A stretch of DNA of 14,915 bases. Source: Gemmatimonadota bacterium (GTDB lineage Bacteria; Latescibacterota; UBA2968; UBA8231). The DNA lies in the NCBI GenBank assembly GCA_026706505.1, contig JAPOYQ010000492.1, positions 6,108-21,022 on the forward strand, given 5' to 3'. The translations under genes and the position numbers were made by a program. Below are positions 10,096 to 14,866 of this stretch, in pieces (positions within the stretch are counted from its first letter, which is position 1; every line of letters begins with the position of its first letter). The notes beneath the pieces were generated by a model, which was given only the letters and a program-made list of their open reading frames with translations, was not told the DNA's origin and ran no database searches.

Positions 10096-10533
10096 ATGAC
10101 TAAACTTGAGCTCGCACGTGGAGGGGATGCGCTGAATTTGCGTCTCGATAGAGCCGAAGGGATGCCGATCTACCTGCAACTAAGCAAGCAAATCAAGTAC
10201 CACATCGCCGTCGGCACCCTCAAAGCCGACGACGAGTTGCCCTCGGTGCGGGCCATGGCCAGTGCCCAGCAAATCAATTCGAACACGGTCGTCCGCGCCT
10301 ATTTGGAACTGGAGCGCGAAGGCGTCATCTACAAAAGACGCGGCATAGGAACGTACGTCGCCGAAAAGAGGGTCTCTATGGGCACTGAAGAGCGGCTGAA
10401 TATAGTGCGCAATCTAATAGAAGAAGCACTGGTGGAAGGGACGCGGCTTGGGCTGGACGCGGCGAGTTTGCGCGAGTGTTTTTCGCATCCCCAGGACGAC
10501 CGAGTAGTATTCCTCAAGGTCCGTGCTAAATAA
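10096..10533 (+). CDS. GntR-family transcriptional regulator, YtrA subfamily
   Basis: This 145-residue DNA-binding repressor has an N-terminal winged helix: GMPIYLQLSKQIKYHIAVG, DELPSVRAMASAQQINSNTV, and the wing VIYKRRGIGTYVAEK (about 22-91). It is followed by only about 50 residues of helical dimerisation region, which marks the YtrA subfamily rather than FadR, HutC or MocR types. YtrA members usually control adjacent ABC transporters, but none follows here; the next gene is a response regulator 94 bases downstream. The RBS is weak (CAGAGA). The promoter and a probable autoregulatory operator lie immediately upstream. Confidence 0.92.
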   Translation: MTKLELARGGDALNLRLDRAEGMPIYLQLSKQIKYHIAVGTLKADDELPSVRAMASAQQINSNTVVRAYLELEREGVIYKRRGIGTYVAEKRVSMGTEERLNIVRNLIEEALVEGTRLGLDAASLRECFSHPQDDRVVFLKVRAK

Positions 10534-10627: not shown

Positions 10628-11269
10628 ATGGGTACGCGGGTCTTGTTGGTAGAAGATCACGAGATTGTGCGCCAAGGGGTGCGCTTGCGGTTAGAGAAAG
10701 AAAGTGGCATTGAAGTGATCGCCGAGGCCGGGGACGGCCGCACAGCCGTCGCTTTGGTCTCCAGACACCTACCCGATATTGTGGTCATGGATATTGGTCT
10801 GCCCAACTTGAATGGCATTGAGGCGACGAGGCAGATATGCGATAGGGAGACTAGCGTGAAGGTGGTGGCACTGTCGGCACGTGCGGACAAACGTGTGTCT
10901 AGCATGTTTCAGGCGGGAGCTTCGGCCTATGTGCTGAAAACAGAGTCTGATCGCGAGCTTGTAAGAGCGATCCGGGAGGTGCAGGCCGGCCGCAAGTACG
11001 TGAGCCCGCAGTTGATTAACCCCCTCATCGCCGATTACGCGCAACGCCTCGCCGAGGGTGCCGAGCCGTCCTTCCTGACAGCCCGCGAGCGGGAAGTGCT
11101 GCAGCTTATTGCCGAGGGAAAAACGACCGTGCAAATAGCCGATCAGCTTGTGGTGAGCGAGAAAACCGTGAGCAATCATCGCCAGAATCTCATGAAGAAG
11201 CTCGGCCTGAACGGGGTGGCTGAATTGACCAAATACGCGATCCGAGAAGGAATTACGTCGCTGGAGTAA
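10628..11269 (+). CDS. NarL/FixJ-type (LuxR HTH) response regulator, orphan
   Basis: This 213-residue two-component regulator has a receiver domain (about 3-120) with the acidic pair Glu9-Asp10, phosphoacceptor Asp55 in VVMDIGLP, Ser83 and Lys104. A C-terminal LuxR helix-turn-helix begins at FLTAREREVLQLIAEGKT, with VSEKTVSNHRQNLMKKL as recognition region. No histidine kinase gene is in the window. AGGAAGGA (10606-10613) is 14 bases from the ATG, rather far. The gene sits directly ahead of the propeller-peptide modules, and a decayed copy of its 3' part recurs ahead of the second module (13053-13120). It has therefore been linked to the module since before the duplication, and a regulatory link is plausible. 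Confidence 0.95.
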   Translation: MGTRVLLVEDHEIVRQGVRLRLEKESGIEVIAEAGDGRTAVALVSRHLPDIVVMDIGLPNLNGIEATRQICDRETSVKVVALSARADKRVSSMFQAGASAYVLKTESDRELVRAIREVQAGRKYVSPQLINPLIADYAQRLAEGAEPSFLTAREREVLQLIAEGKTTVQIADQLVVSEKTVSNHRQNLMKKLGLNGVAELTKYAIREGITSLE

Positions 11270-11445
11270 GGAACCTCTGGGGTGCTTGGGTCGCAAAACC
11301 AGCTTTTTTGAAGGCGAGAATAGGGTGTTCTCTCTATATGAACGCGCCGAATCAATGGCTATGTTTAATCTGCGAAGGGTATTCCTGCCGACAGCGATTT
11401 GGATCCCGCGAGTAACTGTAAGCGTTGAGAAAGATTCGATTCATG
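11244..11445 (+). repeat. Leader repeat, copy 1 (response-regulator 3' end plus module 5' region)
   Basis: This block aligns almost base for base with 13095-13290. It includes the last codons of the response-regulator gene (GTCGCTGGAGTA in both), GTCGCAAAA, TTTTTGAAGGCG, ATAGGGTGTT, a 28-base exact match (11364-11391 with 13213-13240) and GCGTTGAGAAAGA. The small hairpin GCTTTTTTGAAGGC lies at 11302-11315. In this copy, the short frame opened by the ATG at 11355 (MAMFNLRRVFLP...) is out of frame with the propeller. It stops at 11495, at the propeller's ribosome binding site. No confident promoter was seen. Confidence 0.85.
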
Positions 11446-11505
11446 CTAGCCAGTGCTTTTACCTTATCTCCTTTCCAGTCGGAAGACGCCCATAAGGGGT
11501 GGCTT

Positions 11506-12687
11506 ATGAGTTGTGCCAGAAGGGTTGCTACTTGTTTGCTTGTTGGCGTGTTCCTCCTCGGCAGCACCGCTCAGCCGGCCGATGCTGGCTTGTGGGACGT
11601 AGTTAAGGAGTGGTACGTCAGCTTCCAGTTGGGAGAAGTAGATGAGGCCAACATTCCTCAAGTGCCGGTGGAGTACGTCGGCGAAGTCAGCTTACTCTTA
11701 AAAAATCAAGTCGAACTGGCCTTTGAGGAGGATACGCCGGGGATCGGCACATTACGCTGGATGGGTTTCTCCCCAGAGGGCACCCTGCTGATCACGGATA
11801 GAACCGTCGCGCAGGCCCTTGAATTCAGACGGACGGACGGAAAGTACGTGTACGTCCGCTCGTTTGGGAGACAGGGGAATGGGCCGGGGGAATATGCGTC
11901 TTCTGTGAATATGGCAGTAAGCCCCCAAGGCCAAGCGTACCTTCTTGATCTCGATTTTGGCCAAATCCTCCGATATGATCGGCAGGGGCCATACTTGGAT
12001 AAGATGCGATCATTCAATACTAGCCGACTTTTGACAGGTCTCAACGGGGAGGTGTTCCTACTAAAAACGAACCGCATGAAAATCATGGAGGTACAGCGGC
12101 TTGACCCTGAGACTTGGGAGCTCCTCTATCGTACTCCTGTTTCCACCGACAAACAGCGATTTATCTCCTACCGTATGGCGACGTTTGCTCATCTGTGCTA
12201 CGACTCGGCCCGGCATCGGCTGTATTATCTAGGCCCCAATGATTACTTGGTCAAAGAGATTGACGCCGAAACGGGGGCCATTCTCCGGCAGTTTGGTCGG
12301 CCACCCGAGGGATTCATGCCTTTACCCAAGTATTACCATAGCCTTGGACGAGGTTCCCGCGAGGATATGGCTGAATTGGAGATGACTGTCGTAAATAGCA
12401 TGATCTTAGTACAGGATCGGTATTTATGGATTTCTCACAAGATTGGTCGCCTCGGGCCAATAAGGTGGGTTCTTTATGACCTAACTGCTTCGGCCCGTAT
12501 TGATGCGTATGGCTTCAATAGCTCGGCTATAGAACGCCTCAAATCGTTTAGCAACATTACACCTTGGAAAAGTGTCACCGCTTGGCAGGGTCGCCTATAT
12601 ATGTGGATGCCTCCCCCGGAAGATGTAGCCGAGAAATCCAACGGCATAGTGGAGATCTATGAACTTTCCTTTTCTGCAAGCAGCTAG
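11506..12687 (+). CDS. Secreted six-bladed beta-propeller protein, module 1
   Basis: The 393-residue product has a Sec signal peptide (SCARR, then hydrophobic VATCLLVGVFLLGSTA, cleavage probably after PADA near residue 27) and no lipobox. The mature part begins with IPQVPVEYVGEV (50-61). It carries repeated propeller blades, including the hallmark SFGRQGNGPGEY (119-130), then VSPQGQAYLLDLDFGQILRYDRQG and LYYLGPNDYLVKEIDAETG. It ends PPPEDVAEKSNGIVEIYEL. This resembles the NHL/6-bladed propeller proteins of Bacteroidetes and related phyla, thought to act in binding at the cell surface or periplasm; no catalytic residues are evident. The start at 11506 is supported by AAGGGGTGG and the signal peptide. 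A short upstream frame ends at this RBS, suggesting translational coupling. The Cys-rich peptide gene follows after 49 bases. Confidence 0.85.
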   Translation: MSCARRVATCLLVGVFLLGSTAQPADAGLWDVVKEWYVSFQLGEVDEANIPQVPVEYVGEVSLLLKNQVELAFEEDTPGIGTLRWMGFSPEGTLLITDRTVAQALEFRRTDGKYVYVRSFGRQGNGPGEYASSVNMAVSPQGQAYLLDLDFGQILRYDRQGPYLDKMRSFNTSRLLTGLNGEVFLLKTNRMKIMEVQRLDPETWELLYRTPVSTDKQRFISYRMATFAHLCYDSARHRLYYLGPNDYLVKEIDAETGAILRQFGRPPEGFMPLPKYYHSLGRGSREDMAELEMTVVNSMILVQDRYLWISHKIGRLGPIRWVLYDLTASARIDAYGFNSSAIERLKSFSNITPWKSVTAWQGRLYMWMPPPEDVAEKSNGIVEIYELSFSASS

Positions 12688-12736
12688 TCACCCTTTTATG
12701 GGCCTTTTTCATCCATTTTATAGGAGGAGTAACCTC

Positions 12737-12952
12737 ATGGAAAAACTCATCAAGAAGTCCCTCGATAGACGTAATGCTCTGATCCAAACCTATGGAAATG
12801 AGTTGTTGGGGGGTAACGACTGGTATTATTCACACACAATAACAAAGGGGTCATGCACCTACGACGTATATAAGTGTAGATATGAACCGTGGGATCTTTG
12901 GGATTCCTGCGAGATAGGTGATGTAGAAGAACGGCTTGTAAGCTGCAGCTAG
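12737..12952 (+). CDS. Small Cys-rich peptide with Gly-Gly leader, module 1 (putative exported peptide)
   Basis: This 71-residue product has a strong RBS (GGAGGAG, 12723-12729, 7-base spacer). A charged N-terminal part (MEKLIKKSLDRRNALIQTYG) leads to NELLGG, with Gly-Gly at 25-26. A 45-residue C-terminal part rich in Trp/Tyr carries four Cys (40, 47, 58, 70). The layout matches peptides cleaved after a double glycine by C39-type exporters. It is homologous to the product at 14592-14831 in the leader (RRxxLIxTYGxE...GG(N/D)D) and shares its final C-x11-C spacing, while the core differs. It lies 49 bases after the propeller and just before a strong terminator, so the two form one transcript. 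Bacteriocin, signal or modified peptide are all possible; I do not recognise the family. Confidence 0.75.
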   Translation: MEKLIKKSLDRRNALIQTYGNELLGGNDWYYSHTITKGSCTYDVYKCRYEPWDLWDSCEIGDVEERLVSCS

Positions 12953-12983
12953 GACTCCGGACTCCTTAGCTCTCCTCTCTCCT

Positions 12984-13018
12984 AGGCCCTACGCTGCACG
13001 ATCAGCGTAGGGCCTTTT
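12984..13018 (+). terminator. Intrinsic terminator after module 1
   Basis: AGGCCCTACGCTG (12984-12996) and CAGCGTAGGGCCT (13003-13015) form a perfect 13-bp stem with loop CACGAT, followed by TTTTATAA. It closes the propeller-peptide transcript of module 1 and separates it from module 2, which must therefore have its own promoter. Confidence 0.94.
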
Positions 13019-13052
13019 ATAAGATCGAGTTCGTTAATTATCCGGTCCTGTG

Positions 13053-13120
13053 ATCGCCGAGGTAAAAACGGCTTCGCAAATAGCCGGTCAACTAGAGAAG
13101 AAATTGCGTCGCTGGAGTAG
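13053..13120 (+). pseudogene. Vestigial fragment of the response-regulator HTH region
   Basis: The plus strand reads IAEVKTASQIAGQL (13053-13094), matching IAEGKTTVQIADQL of the response regulator at 11108-11149. It then jumps to GAGAAGAAATTGCG and GTCGCTGGAGTAG, matching the gene's last codons (11244-11269). The 94 bases between (11150-11243) are missing, which breaks the frame. It is a non-functional relic left by the tandem duplication that created module 2. Confidence 0.85.
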
Positions 13121-13290
13121 GGAGTCTCCTGGGTGCCTAGGTCGCAAAATCAGCCTTTTTGAAGGCGGAAATAGGGTGTTTTCCCATAGGAGGATATCGA
13201 ATGATGGCTATCTTTAATCTGCGAAGGGTATTCCTGCCGATAGCGGTTGGGATTCCGCAGAACCCAGCGTTGAGAAAGAGTCGGTTCATG
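13095..13290 (+). repeat. Leader repeat, copy 2 (module 2 5' region)
   Basis: This is the second copy of the block at 11244-11445. Differences include GCCTTTTTGAAGGC (13153-13166), a cleaner inverted repeat than in copy 1, and CCCATAGGAGGATATCGAATG in place of the copy 1 segment that lacks an RBS. A net 4-base difference just before GCGTTGAGAAAG puts the short upstream reading frame in frame with the propeller here. Conservation runs up to the ATG at 13288 and then drops sharply. Confidence 0.85.
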
Positions 13291-14541
13291 AGTTTTAGTA
13301 CTTTCACCTTTAATAACGTCTTGCCCTTCTTCAGGGCCATGCTCATTACGTGGGTGGTAACAGGCTATGGCGGGGTCAAGTCTGTTGCGGCGCAGGAGCA
13401 GCTAGACGAGTCGAGTATTCCCAAAGTGCCTGTAGAATATGCCGGGGAGATGGGTCTTGAATTCAAGCGCACAGTTGAATTGATCTTTGATAAGGCAGCT
13501 CCAGGTATTGGCCAGATACGCTGGATGGGCATTACTCCTGATAGTTCCTTACTCCTTACAGATCGGATATCTCGTAGGGCGTACGAGTTCAGCCTGAACG
13601 ATGGCCAATATATACGGTCTTTCGGACGCACAGGGAAGGGGCCTGGAGAATATGGAGGTGCTGAGGCGATGGCTATGGATTCCAAGGGGGATGTCTATAT
13701 CATGGATCCTATATACGGCCAATTATTGCATTATAATCGACAAGGTCAGTACCGTGATAATAAGATGAGCTGGGTTGGATGTAGAGGTTTGTTGATCAAC
13801 CGAGATGATGCACTGATCGTTATGGAGAATAAACATGGTGGATCTATCATGCAGATACAGAAAATTACTGGCCTCGATAGGACAGTAGAATACACCACAC
13901 CTCTCTCTAGTAAGGCAGATCAGATCATCTCATGCTATCTGCGTAATCCAGCTCAACTATGCTATAATACTACGCAAAACCGTCTGTATTATCTAGAGGC
14001 CAATGACTACATGGTGAAAGAGATCGATGCCTCCACCGGTGATATCCTGCGGCAATTCGGTGCCCTTGTGCCTAGTTATAACGTCTTTACCCTTGAGAAG
14101 CAGCAGCCAGATTTCAAATTCTTACCGAGGGAGTATCACGGCCTAGATTGTGGATCAACAGATCGGGGTGATTTCTCCCTAATAATGAGTGAAATCAATC
14201 GGGCGACTAGCATGGTCCTGATAGATGATCGTTACCTATTAATCTCACACACTTCTCGTGAGAGACCACAGTCACCAAATGAATGGACGCTTTATGATTT
14301 AGTGCCTTCGGATTCGTCGGAATTGATTGAGGCATACTCGCTCAATGGTGCTGCATATCAATCTCTTGAAGGTATCAAAAAAGACTCTCAGGGAACTGTA
14401 GTTAAAGCTAAAGCAAGCAGGATAGGCGGAAGAATAGCATCTTGGAAGAGCCAGATTTATGTTTATAGGCCACCACCAGTAGAGGCAGCGGAGAAGTCCA
14501 ATGGCACAGTGGACATATATGAACTGTTCGTTAAAAGATAA
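13201..14541 (+). CDS. Secreted six-bladed beta-propeller protein, module 2
   Basis: The product has 446 residues from the ATG that follows AGGAGG (13188-13193) by 7 bases. Alternative starts are 13288 and 13339. The likely export signal is internal to the long form: the hydrophobic MLITWVVTGYGGVKSVAA at 47-64, cleaved before QEQ. That favours 13288 or 13339 as the working start, whereas the RBS favours 13201. The mature part parallels module 1: IPKVPVEYAGEM, GIGQIRWMGITPD, SFGRTGKGPGEY (140-151), LYYLEANDYMVKEIDASTG, and the ending PPPVEAAEKSNGTVDIYEL. Roughly half the residues in the N-terminal blades match by eye. Base composition is lower in G+C than module 1. A peptide gene follows after 50 bases. 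The role is presumably the same as its paralogue; the ligand is unknown. Confidence 0.83.
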   Translation: MMAIFNLRRVFLPIAVGIPQNPALRKSRFMSFSTFTFNNVLPFFRAMLITWVVTGYGGVKSVAAQEQLDESSIPKVPVEYAGEMGLEFKRTVELIFDKAAPGIGQIRWMGITPDSSLLLTDRISRRAYEFSLNDGQYIRSFGRTGKGPGEYGGAEAMAMDSKGDVYIMDPIYGQLLHYNRQGQYRDNKMSWVGCRGLLINRDDALIVMENKHGGSIMQIQKITGLDRTVEYTTPLSSKADQIISCYLRNPAQLCYNTTQNRLYYLEANDYMVKEIDASTGDILRQFGALVPSYNVFTLEKQQPDFKFLPREYHGLDCGSTDRGDFSLIMSEINRATSMVLIDDRYLLISHTSRERPQSPNEWTLYDLVPSDSSELIEAYSLNGAAYQSLEGIKKDSQGTVVKAKASRIGGRIASWKSQIYVYRPPPVEAAEKSNGTVDIYELFVKR

Positions 14542-14591
14542 ATTATAAGACAGGGAACACACCTCAATTCCTCAAACGAAAGGAATGCGTT

Positions 14592-14831
14592 ATGGTTAAT
14601 CTTACCAAGAATACCAAGAATACCTCGTACAGACGTACGGATCTCATTTGTACCTACGGTGCTGAAGGTGTTTGGGTAGGAGGAGATGATTTTGATTCTA
14701 AATACGAAAACGGATGTCTTACAATATGGTATGCTTGGAATTGGAAGTGTTTCTCTGGAAGCACTCATGATTGCACTCCATGTGATCGGGACAGCGGATC
14801 GTGGACCAAAGTATACTGCGACGACGACTGA
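14592..14831 (+). CDS. Small Cys-rich peptide with Gly-Gly leader, module 2 (putative exported peptide)
   Basis: This 79-residue product has the RBS AAAGGA seven bases before the ATG. Its leader NTSYRRTDLICTYGAEG ends in VWVGG (Gly30-Gly31) and aligns with the module 1 peptide: RR, LI, TYG, E, GG, then (N/D)D(W/F). The C-terminal part has five Cys (42, 53, 61, 64, 76) plus one in the leader (20), and many aromatic residues (LTIWYAWNWKCF). The last two Cys are 11 residues apart, as in module 1. The rest of the core is unrelated in sequence, as expected for a conserved leader on a diversifying core. It follows the propeller by 50 bases. No exporter or modifying enzyme is visible. An alternative is a plain secreted disulfide-rich protein of unknown role. 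Confidence 0.72.
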   Translation: MVNLTKNTKNTSYRRTDLICTYGAEGVWVGGDDFDSKYENGCLTIWYAWNWKCFSGSTHDCTPCDRDSGSWTKVYCDDD

Positions 14832-14834
14832 TGA

Positions 14835-14866
14835 GCCTTCATCTTTTTTGAAGGCATCTTAATTTA
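14835..14866 (+). terminator. Probable terminator after module 2
   Basis: GCCTTCA (14835-14841) pairs with TGAAGGC (14849-14855) around a T-rich loop, followed by ATCTTAATTTATTTTT. The stem is only 7 bp and the T-tract interrupted, so it is weaker than the module 1 terminator. The string TTTTTTGAAGGC also occurs in the leader block at 11303-11314, so this could alternatively be the degenerate beginning of another leader copy. Confidence 0.6.

Follow-up and report, generated by a model that had tools for sequence, protein, structure and literature searches.

What might two predicted secreted beta-propellers, each closely followed by a small gene for a cysteine-rich peptide, be doing side by side in a bacterial genome? 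The question is raised by a stretch of 14,915 nucleotides from a Gemmatimonadota bacterium (contig JAPOYQ010000492.1, positions 6,108 to 21,022; hereafter the window), in which the propeller genes prA and prB precede the peptide genes pep1 and pep2. A first-pass annotation, made from the letters and their translations, had described these modules as a candidate undescribed system. We propose, at a probability of about 0.62, that pep1 and pep2 are precursors of disulfide-rich secreted peptides and that the propeller is their dedicated extracellular partner. The two modules comprise:

11506 to 12687, forward strand: propeller prA (PF17170; likely start ATG 11506, open reading frame extending back to TTG 11425; Sec signal recognised by eye)
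12737 to 12952, forward strand: pep1, predicted precursor peptide of 71 amino acids (open reading frame with a ribosome-binding site)
12984 to 13015, forward strand: intrinsic terminator 3' of pep1 (13-pair stem, -26.9 kcal/mol, z -6.2)
13204 to 14541, forward strand: propeller prB (PF17170; possible starts 13159, 13204 and 13288; Sec signal by eye)
14592 to 14831, forward strand: pep2, predicted precursor peptide of 79 amino acids (homologues P0001-P0004)
14835 to 14855, forward strand: terminator-like hairpin 3' of pep2 (region -13.6 kcal/mol, z -3.1)

Propellers and peptides of the window

Each small gene starts a short distance 3' of its propeller, 49 bases for pep1 (prA ends at 12687, ATG at 12737) and 50 bases for pep2 (14541 and 14592), and has what reads as its own ribosome-binding site (RBS), GGAGGAG for pep1 and AAAGGA for pep2, in both cases 7 bases 5' of the gene. 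This layout agreed with the first-pass annotation, as did the terminator hairpins after both small genes. The two propellers passed the Pfam cut-off for the six-bladed propeller family PF17170 (26.0 bits for prA and 34.9 for prB, against a cut-off of 22.9), their Sec signals being recognised by eye and not by a program, and for prB an NHL-like propeller fold was also predicted (AlphaFold2 (AF2) mean pLDDT 78.3), with an NHL domain as best PDB match.

The annotation was also right that the two small products share an N-terminal segment (42% identity over about 31 residues, E 5e-4) and carry Cys/Trp-rich C-termini. The leader-like part of pep1 (12737-12793) spans 19 amino acids ending in IQTY and is followed by a core with 4 Cys, and that of pep2 (14592-14657) spans 22 amino acids ending in ICTY, followed by a core with 5 Cys and 5 Trp. 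The AF2 model of pep2 was of low confidence (mean pLDDT 55.7), with residues 1-26 below 50 and weak strands at 28-39, 42-53 and 70-76. The Gly-Gly pair previously taken as the leader boundary did not hold up: the pair is found in pep1, pep2 and P0001-P0003, whereas P0004 shows VGD and the L001 peptide lacks it (throughout, G denotes genomes of the phylum, of which 64 were searched, L fetched loci, P database proteins and C contigs). With Gly-Gly not conserved and no C39 domain in the two ATP-binding cassette (ABC) proteins scanned, a double-glycine leader/C39 system is not indicated.

Judged by their sequences, pep1 and pep2 are real genes, because database searches returned four homologues of pep2 (P0001-P0004), which match 97% of its length at 62-81% identity; a lack of homologues together with a lack of any coding signature was among the outcomes that the annotation had named as counting against its proposal. 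A pep2 profile search listed 24 proteins at E <= 10, 14 of them at E <= 1e-3. Pfam and NCBIfam scans assigned the window peptides to no family and gave no NVEALA match (the annotation had noted no such motif in them), and viral contigs searched held no relatives of pep2 or prA. When a profile of pep1, pep2 and P0001-P0004 was run against 5722 open reading frames (ORFs), the peptide of L050 (the same as L001) came first (E 9.8e-6) and that of L054 next (E 5.7e-4). Fourth place in this search (E 0.23) went to a small ORF of L055 (3685-3939) whose start is leader-like (IIKPARG...TIYTY) and whose core is hydrophobic.

Maturation genes beside the cassette in relatives

With prB as query, five loci came up. 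In genome G001 (locus L001), the ends of contigs C148 and C218 overlap exactly over 99 bases within a prB-like gene, a stretch unique in that genome, and the joined cluster therefore begins with a PAS kinase, a LuxR regulator, a rhodanese, a prA-like propeller (61% identity) and a prB-like propeller (60%), followed by a peptide, a further propeller and then the maturation genes. These are, in order, a membrane thioredoxin, an ABC exporter, a rhodanese, a fusion of subtilisin (S8) with DUF1611, an acyl carrier protein (ACP), U214, a BtrH-like protein, a membrane fusion protein (MFP) and a resistance-nodulation-division (RND) efflux protein. The window has the same order, but G001 is without a leader peptide between its first two propellers and without a match to the GntR regulator. 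The end of the window corresponds to the point where, in G001, a third propeller and then the maturation genes follow. We infer that the same machinery lies in the window's right flank.

Of the 64 genomes searched, 35 encode the S8-DUF1611 fusion (E <= 1e-20). From these searches 52 regions were fetched and 50 analysed (L050-L099), L100 and L101 being left out for want of an S8 gene; the fusion was present in 49 of the 50 loci, the remaining one, L099, lies at a contig edge and comprises thioredoxin, propellers and peptide. Frequent companions were ACP (36 loci) and ABC-type proteins (34), followed by U342 (8), rhodanese (7), MauE/DoxX-type proteins (6) and BtrH (5). Subtilisin catalytic motifs were present in all 9 propeller-locus proteins not truncated by a contig end, and the subtilisin is likely the leader protease. 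The annotation had suggested looking in the flanks for C39 exporters or peptide-modifying enzymes: exporter and peptide-modifying genes do stand beside the cassette in relatives, but the ABC proteins scanned are not of the C39 kind. The U342 family (L067 8435-9463 and relatives), which adjoins the fusion, had no Pfam match; its similarity to BtrH-like proteins in hhalign, around a His/Gly-Tyr-Asp stretch, was weak (P 0.0027, probability 11%) and is a weak lead.

A leader hidden Markov model (HMM), combined with an ATG and an RBS, gave 37 starts, 3 of them second starts of the same gene, leaving 34 distinct genes in 28 of the 50 loci, and the leader pattern of this wider family can be written M..L.K...[IV].[AGT]Y. 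All 34 genes lie on the strand of the fusion and none on the opposite strand, and no gene was found in 10 separate control regions (14 non-maturation sources minus the window and minus L002-L004, which overlapped others); as many of the genes found, those of the window included, had served to train the HMM, these counts show specificity for strand and place, not independent discovery. An earlier, stricter leader pattern gave, among RBS-bearing matches, 21 on the same strand and 0 on the opposite one. The cores differ widely among loci, ranging from Cys-rich to acidic to Ala/Gly-rich and hydrophobic. The last kind is found in L087 (16275-17812), where four tandem leader genes have cores reminiscent of circular or pore-forming bacteriocins.

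A propeller and thioredoxin subclass

A propeller was present in 12 of the 50 loci, and all 12 also held a CxxC thioredoxin and a leader peptide. Thioredoxin loci numbered 14, with CxxC in 14 of 14 and a propeller in 12, compared with 0 of the other 36 loci; in the two without a propeller (L052 and L061) the locus begins less than 1 kb before the thioredoxin, and L055 gave a weaker thioredoxin match in one scan. Distances from peptide to nearest propeller ORF, measured for 11 gaps, ran from -7 to 520 bases and were mostly within about 150. A MauE-family protein was recognised by Pfam in the two loci tested (E 2e-23 and 1e-24), and the propellers of some relatives have a lipobox by eye. Leader-plus-variable-core peptides accompany propellers, in a cassette that multiplies and diversifies as the annotation had inferred.

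In an alignment of 15 propeller-class peptides W28, C53 and C61 were invariant, while Trp was missing from two cores with a KPQR leader (P0017 and P0019). Of 33 cores, 28 had an even number of Cys (one-sided binomial P 3e-5, for sequences that are related and not independent). This set left out the duplicates P0005 and P0007, four proteins not of the propeller class (P0009, P0013, P0016 and P0022) and P0025-P0026; the other P proteins were taken without genomic context.

Several results weigh against a dedicated propeller-peptide system matured by these genes. No maturation protein was found within the window, and 22 of the 50 loci had no detected leader gene. The S8 part of the fusion resembles QhpE (NF049966) at 152.2 bits, below the cut-off of 165, and its C-terminal part resembles TIGR04066 at 116.5 bits, below the cut-off of 200. 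Cys number is odd in pep2 and even in 11 of 15 cores from the window and propeller loci. The peptide-propeller pairing on which the annotation relied, seen in 12 of 12 propeller-bearing maturation loci, is not universal: of 29 propeller matches in 12 of 64 genomes, 14 were in loci with neither a detectable leader peptide nor the fusion. Lastly, a leave-out leader HMM, built without the leaders of the window, P0001-P0004 and L001, missed both pep1 (0.7 bits, matched or beaten by 187 of 2000 shuffles) and pep2 (-0.7 bits, 453 of 2000), and two other starts in the window outscored them. The window leaders are therefore tied to the wider family only via bridging peptides of close relatives (L050 and L054) and syntenic propellers.

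Age and variability of the cassette

Upstream of the propellers, and between them, lie two regulators and a duplicated flank:

10096 to 10533, forward strand: GntR-family regulator (PF00392, 44.5 bits)
10628 to 11269, forward strand: LuxR-type response regulator (PF00072 and PF00196; 54% identity to the regulator heading the G001 cluster)
11108 to 11465, forward strand: first copy (A) of the 5' flank, covering the LuxR 3' end and the prA upstream region (repeat blocks D2-D5)
13053 to 13310, forward strand: second copy (B) of the 5' flank, including what is left of the LuxR 3' end (repeat blocks D2-D5)

Both regulators had been named previously and are supported by their Pfam matches, and an Rfam scan of the window gave no match at gathering thresholds. 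That the locus is a tandem duplication stands insofar as two modules are present; the correction concerns its age. The gene bodies were duplicated long ago, prA and prB being 43% identical to each other but each closer to a different G001 propeller (60-61% for prB and 61% for prA). The flank copies are 78-91% identical in the repeat blocks despite strongly divergent propellers, so the 5' flank was copied or homogenised later than the gene bodies; its likeness resembles recent copying or gene conversion of the propeller upstream region.

The left block of the window (M20 peptidase, glyceraldehyde-3-phosphate dehydrogenase (GAPDH) and neighbours, named mostly by reading) is kept in order in 7 relatives, one of them truncated by a contig end, and the window GAPDH is 96% identical to that of G047, 95% to G050, 94% to G051 and 90% to G001. 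Neither propellers nor maturation proteins were found at the syntenic place in the seven regions checked (L177-L179 and L181-L184), and the cassette is therefore variable between close relatives. In G051 a truncated LuxR copy of about the first 104 codons (L177 11787-12143) is followed by other genes at the syntenic place, and the 39.8 kb syntenic region held no propeller and no maturation protein. In L146 and L147 (G003 and G024), three and two related propellers respectively stand in tandem, and no peptide or maturation gene was detected there.

Proposed route and alternatives

Starting from the observed genes, their pairing and their neighbourhood in relatives, we infer each catalytic step, the disulfide bonding and the propeller-peptide contact as follows. 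Made ribosomally, pep1 and pep2 would consist of a leader of about 19-26 residues and a Cys-rich core. The leader would be recognised and probably cut in the cytoplasm by the subtilisin-TIGR04066/DUF1611 fusion, an acyl group may be added by the ACP together with a BtrH-like acyltransferase, and the ABC transporter would export the peptide. Outside the cytoplasm the membrane-anchored CxxC thioredoxin, joined in some loci by MauE-like and rhodanese proteins, probably forms the core disulfides, and a secreted or lipid-anchored propeller would bind the folded peptide outside the cell. A more far-reaching version, which we regard as speculative and improbable as a whole, is a secreted propeller-miniprotein complex in which a peptide cut by subtilisin-TIGR04066, exported and folded by MauD/MauE-like oxidation docks on its own propeller, so that a bacteriocin-type pathway would supply interchangeable, fast-evolving subunits, perhaps with a Cys/Trp-derived group.

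Among the alternatives, a bacteriocin-like role is a tentative possibility: the matured peptide would kill or inhibit relatives, and the propeller would sequester it as immunity. Conserved leaders with varying cores are consistent with such a role, as is the resemblance of the wider-family leader to precursors of the CLI_3235 type. Two of these, P0025 and P0026, were matched by 4 and 1 of 5000 shuffles under the wider-family leader HMM and by 0 of 2000 shuffles each under the leave-out HMM; among 1478 other ORF N-termini, five leader genes reached the P0026 score and one unrelated ORF also passed that of P0025. A member of this type, SacP23 of Paenibacillus polymyxa, inhibits methicillin-resistant Staphylococcus aureus (MRSA) according to the accessible part of the report, and has ABC, TIGR04066, ACP and subtilisin genes (PMC10731318). 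However, 16 of the 28 leader loci of the wider family are without a propeller, and the propeller is therefore no general immunity factor; propellers are also found without a peptide.

It is unlikely that the Cys/Trp-rich peptide is instead a permanent subunit of the propeller, as are the small subunits of quinohemoprotein amine or methylamine dehydrogenases, perhaps with a redox group derived from Cys/Trp. A propeller fold is shared by QhpB and the large subunit MauB, the membrane thioredoxin and MauE recall MauD/MauE, and W28, C53 and C61 are the invariant positions of the aligned peptides. The combination of a QhpE-like protease with ABC export for a small subunit made with a leader is that of QhpC: in the portion of the source available, QhpE cuts the leader off QhpC before an ABC transporter exports it (PMC7876137). 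Yet core variability is far above that expected for an enzyme subunit, the Trp is missing from the two KPQR-class cores, and no radical SAM protein was among the matches listed on propeller-cluster contigs within the fetched stretches.

Peptide signalling, in which the LuxR two-component system would sense the exported peptide directly or via the propeller, appears quite unlikely. Upstream of the cassette there is indeed a LuxR regulator in the window and, in G001, a pair of PAS kinase and LuxR regulator, but that kinase is a PAS protein for which the Pfam scan predicted no sensor of a secreted peptide, and other propeller loci have AraC-type regulators instead. A reading of the small ORFs as accidental or decayed frames, as their lack of a Pfam or NCBIfam family might suggest, is close to refuted by the homologues; the RBSs, terminators and ordered cluster in relatives also speak against it.

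Comparison with known systems

The closest known system to the one proposed here, in which exported disulfide-rich peptides would meet a dedicated propeller, is the CLI_3235/CcpM 'peptide maturation system' (TIGR04066, TIGR04068 and TIGR04069; SacP23 and a Roseburia cluster). In the accessible parts of two reports, CLI_3235-type clusters combine a Cys-rich precursor with genes for a radical SAM enzyme, TIGR04066, a protein related to acyl carriers, a subtilisin and an ABC transporter (PMC10731318, PMC4573289). The two systems are alike in having a subtilisin, a TIGR04066 protein (here scoring below the cut-off), an ACP and an ABC transporter, which cluster in relatives and not in the window. 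The wider-family leader (M..L.K...[IV].AY) resembles the CLI_3235 one (M.KL.K...IEAF), but the leave-out HMM does not recognise the leaders of the window. They differ in that the subtilisin and TIGR04066 parts are fused here, and a propeller and CxxC thioredoxin, in some loci also MauE and rhodanese, are added. The CLI_3235 precursor models gave no NCBIfam match among 14 peptides and none in Pfam among 26 (in a Pfam set without PF27803). The radical SAM maturase TIGR04068 was above cut-off in 0 of 64 genomes and, among the matches listed, none was near a propeller cluster, the nearest being about 11 kb away in G039. An arrangement close to the CLI_3235 type does occur in G051 (L096 6603-6761 onward; C1 698.6-702.2 kb), where a leader gene, a TIGR04068-like radical SAM gene and the S8-DUF1611 fusion adjoin, with no propeller. 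N-terminal sequencing of SacP23 was unsuccessful in the portion of the report at hand (PMC10731318), which would fit an N-terminal acyl group.

These findings point to a little-studied branch of bacterial peptide production. The chemistry of the CLI_3235-type maturation genes (TIGR04066, ACP and subtilisin) is unsettled in the literature searched, and a second, widespread branch with very diverse precursors provides naturally occurring variants on which it could be resolved. What the propeller/thioredoxin branch suggests is a class of disulfide-rich peptides that have an extracellular partner of their own, and this makes the role of propellers beside short peptides directly testable.

Quinohemoprotein amine dehydrogenase maturation (QhpC/QhpE/QhpF) is similar in its leader-bearing small Cys/Trp peptide, subtilisin protease and ABC exporter, but here the S8 part is below the NF049966 cut-off and ACP and TIGR04066 are added. 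NVEALA peptides lie beside six-bladed propellers in Bacteroidetes; a short peptide adjoining a PF17170-type propeller is common to both, whereas the peptides here match no NVEALA model. Candidate clusters for ribosomally synthesized and post-translationally modified peptides (RiPPs) found in Streptomyces by decRiPPter contain MauE, joined in one family by MauD, next to Cys-rich precursors, as described in the accessible text (PMC7794033); the present loci, from another phylum, share MauE near Cys-rich precursors. The claim of an undescribed system is true only in part. No description of the propeller-peptide pairing was found in the literature searched, which leaves out most subscription journals and likewise does not mention NVEALA, but the maturation logic has a described relative in the CLI_3235 type, and the system is best called a variant of TIGR04066/subtilisin/ACP peptide maturation with a propeller and thiol-redox branch.

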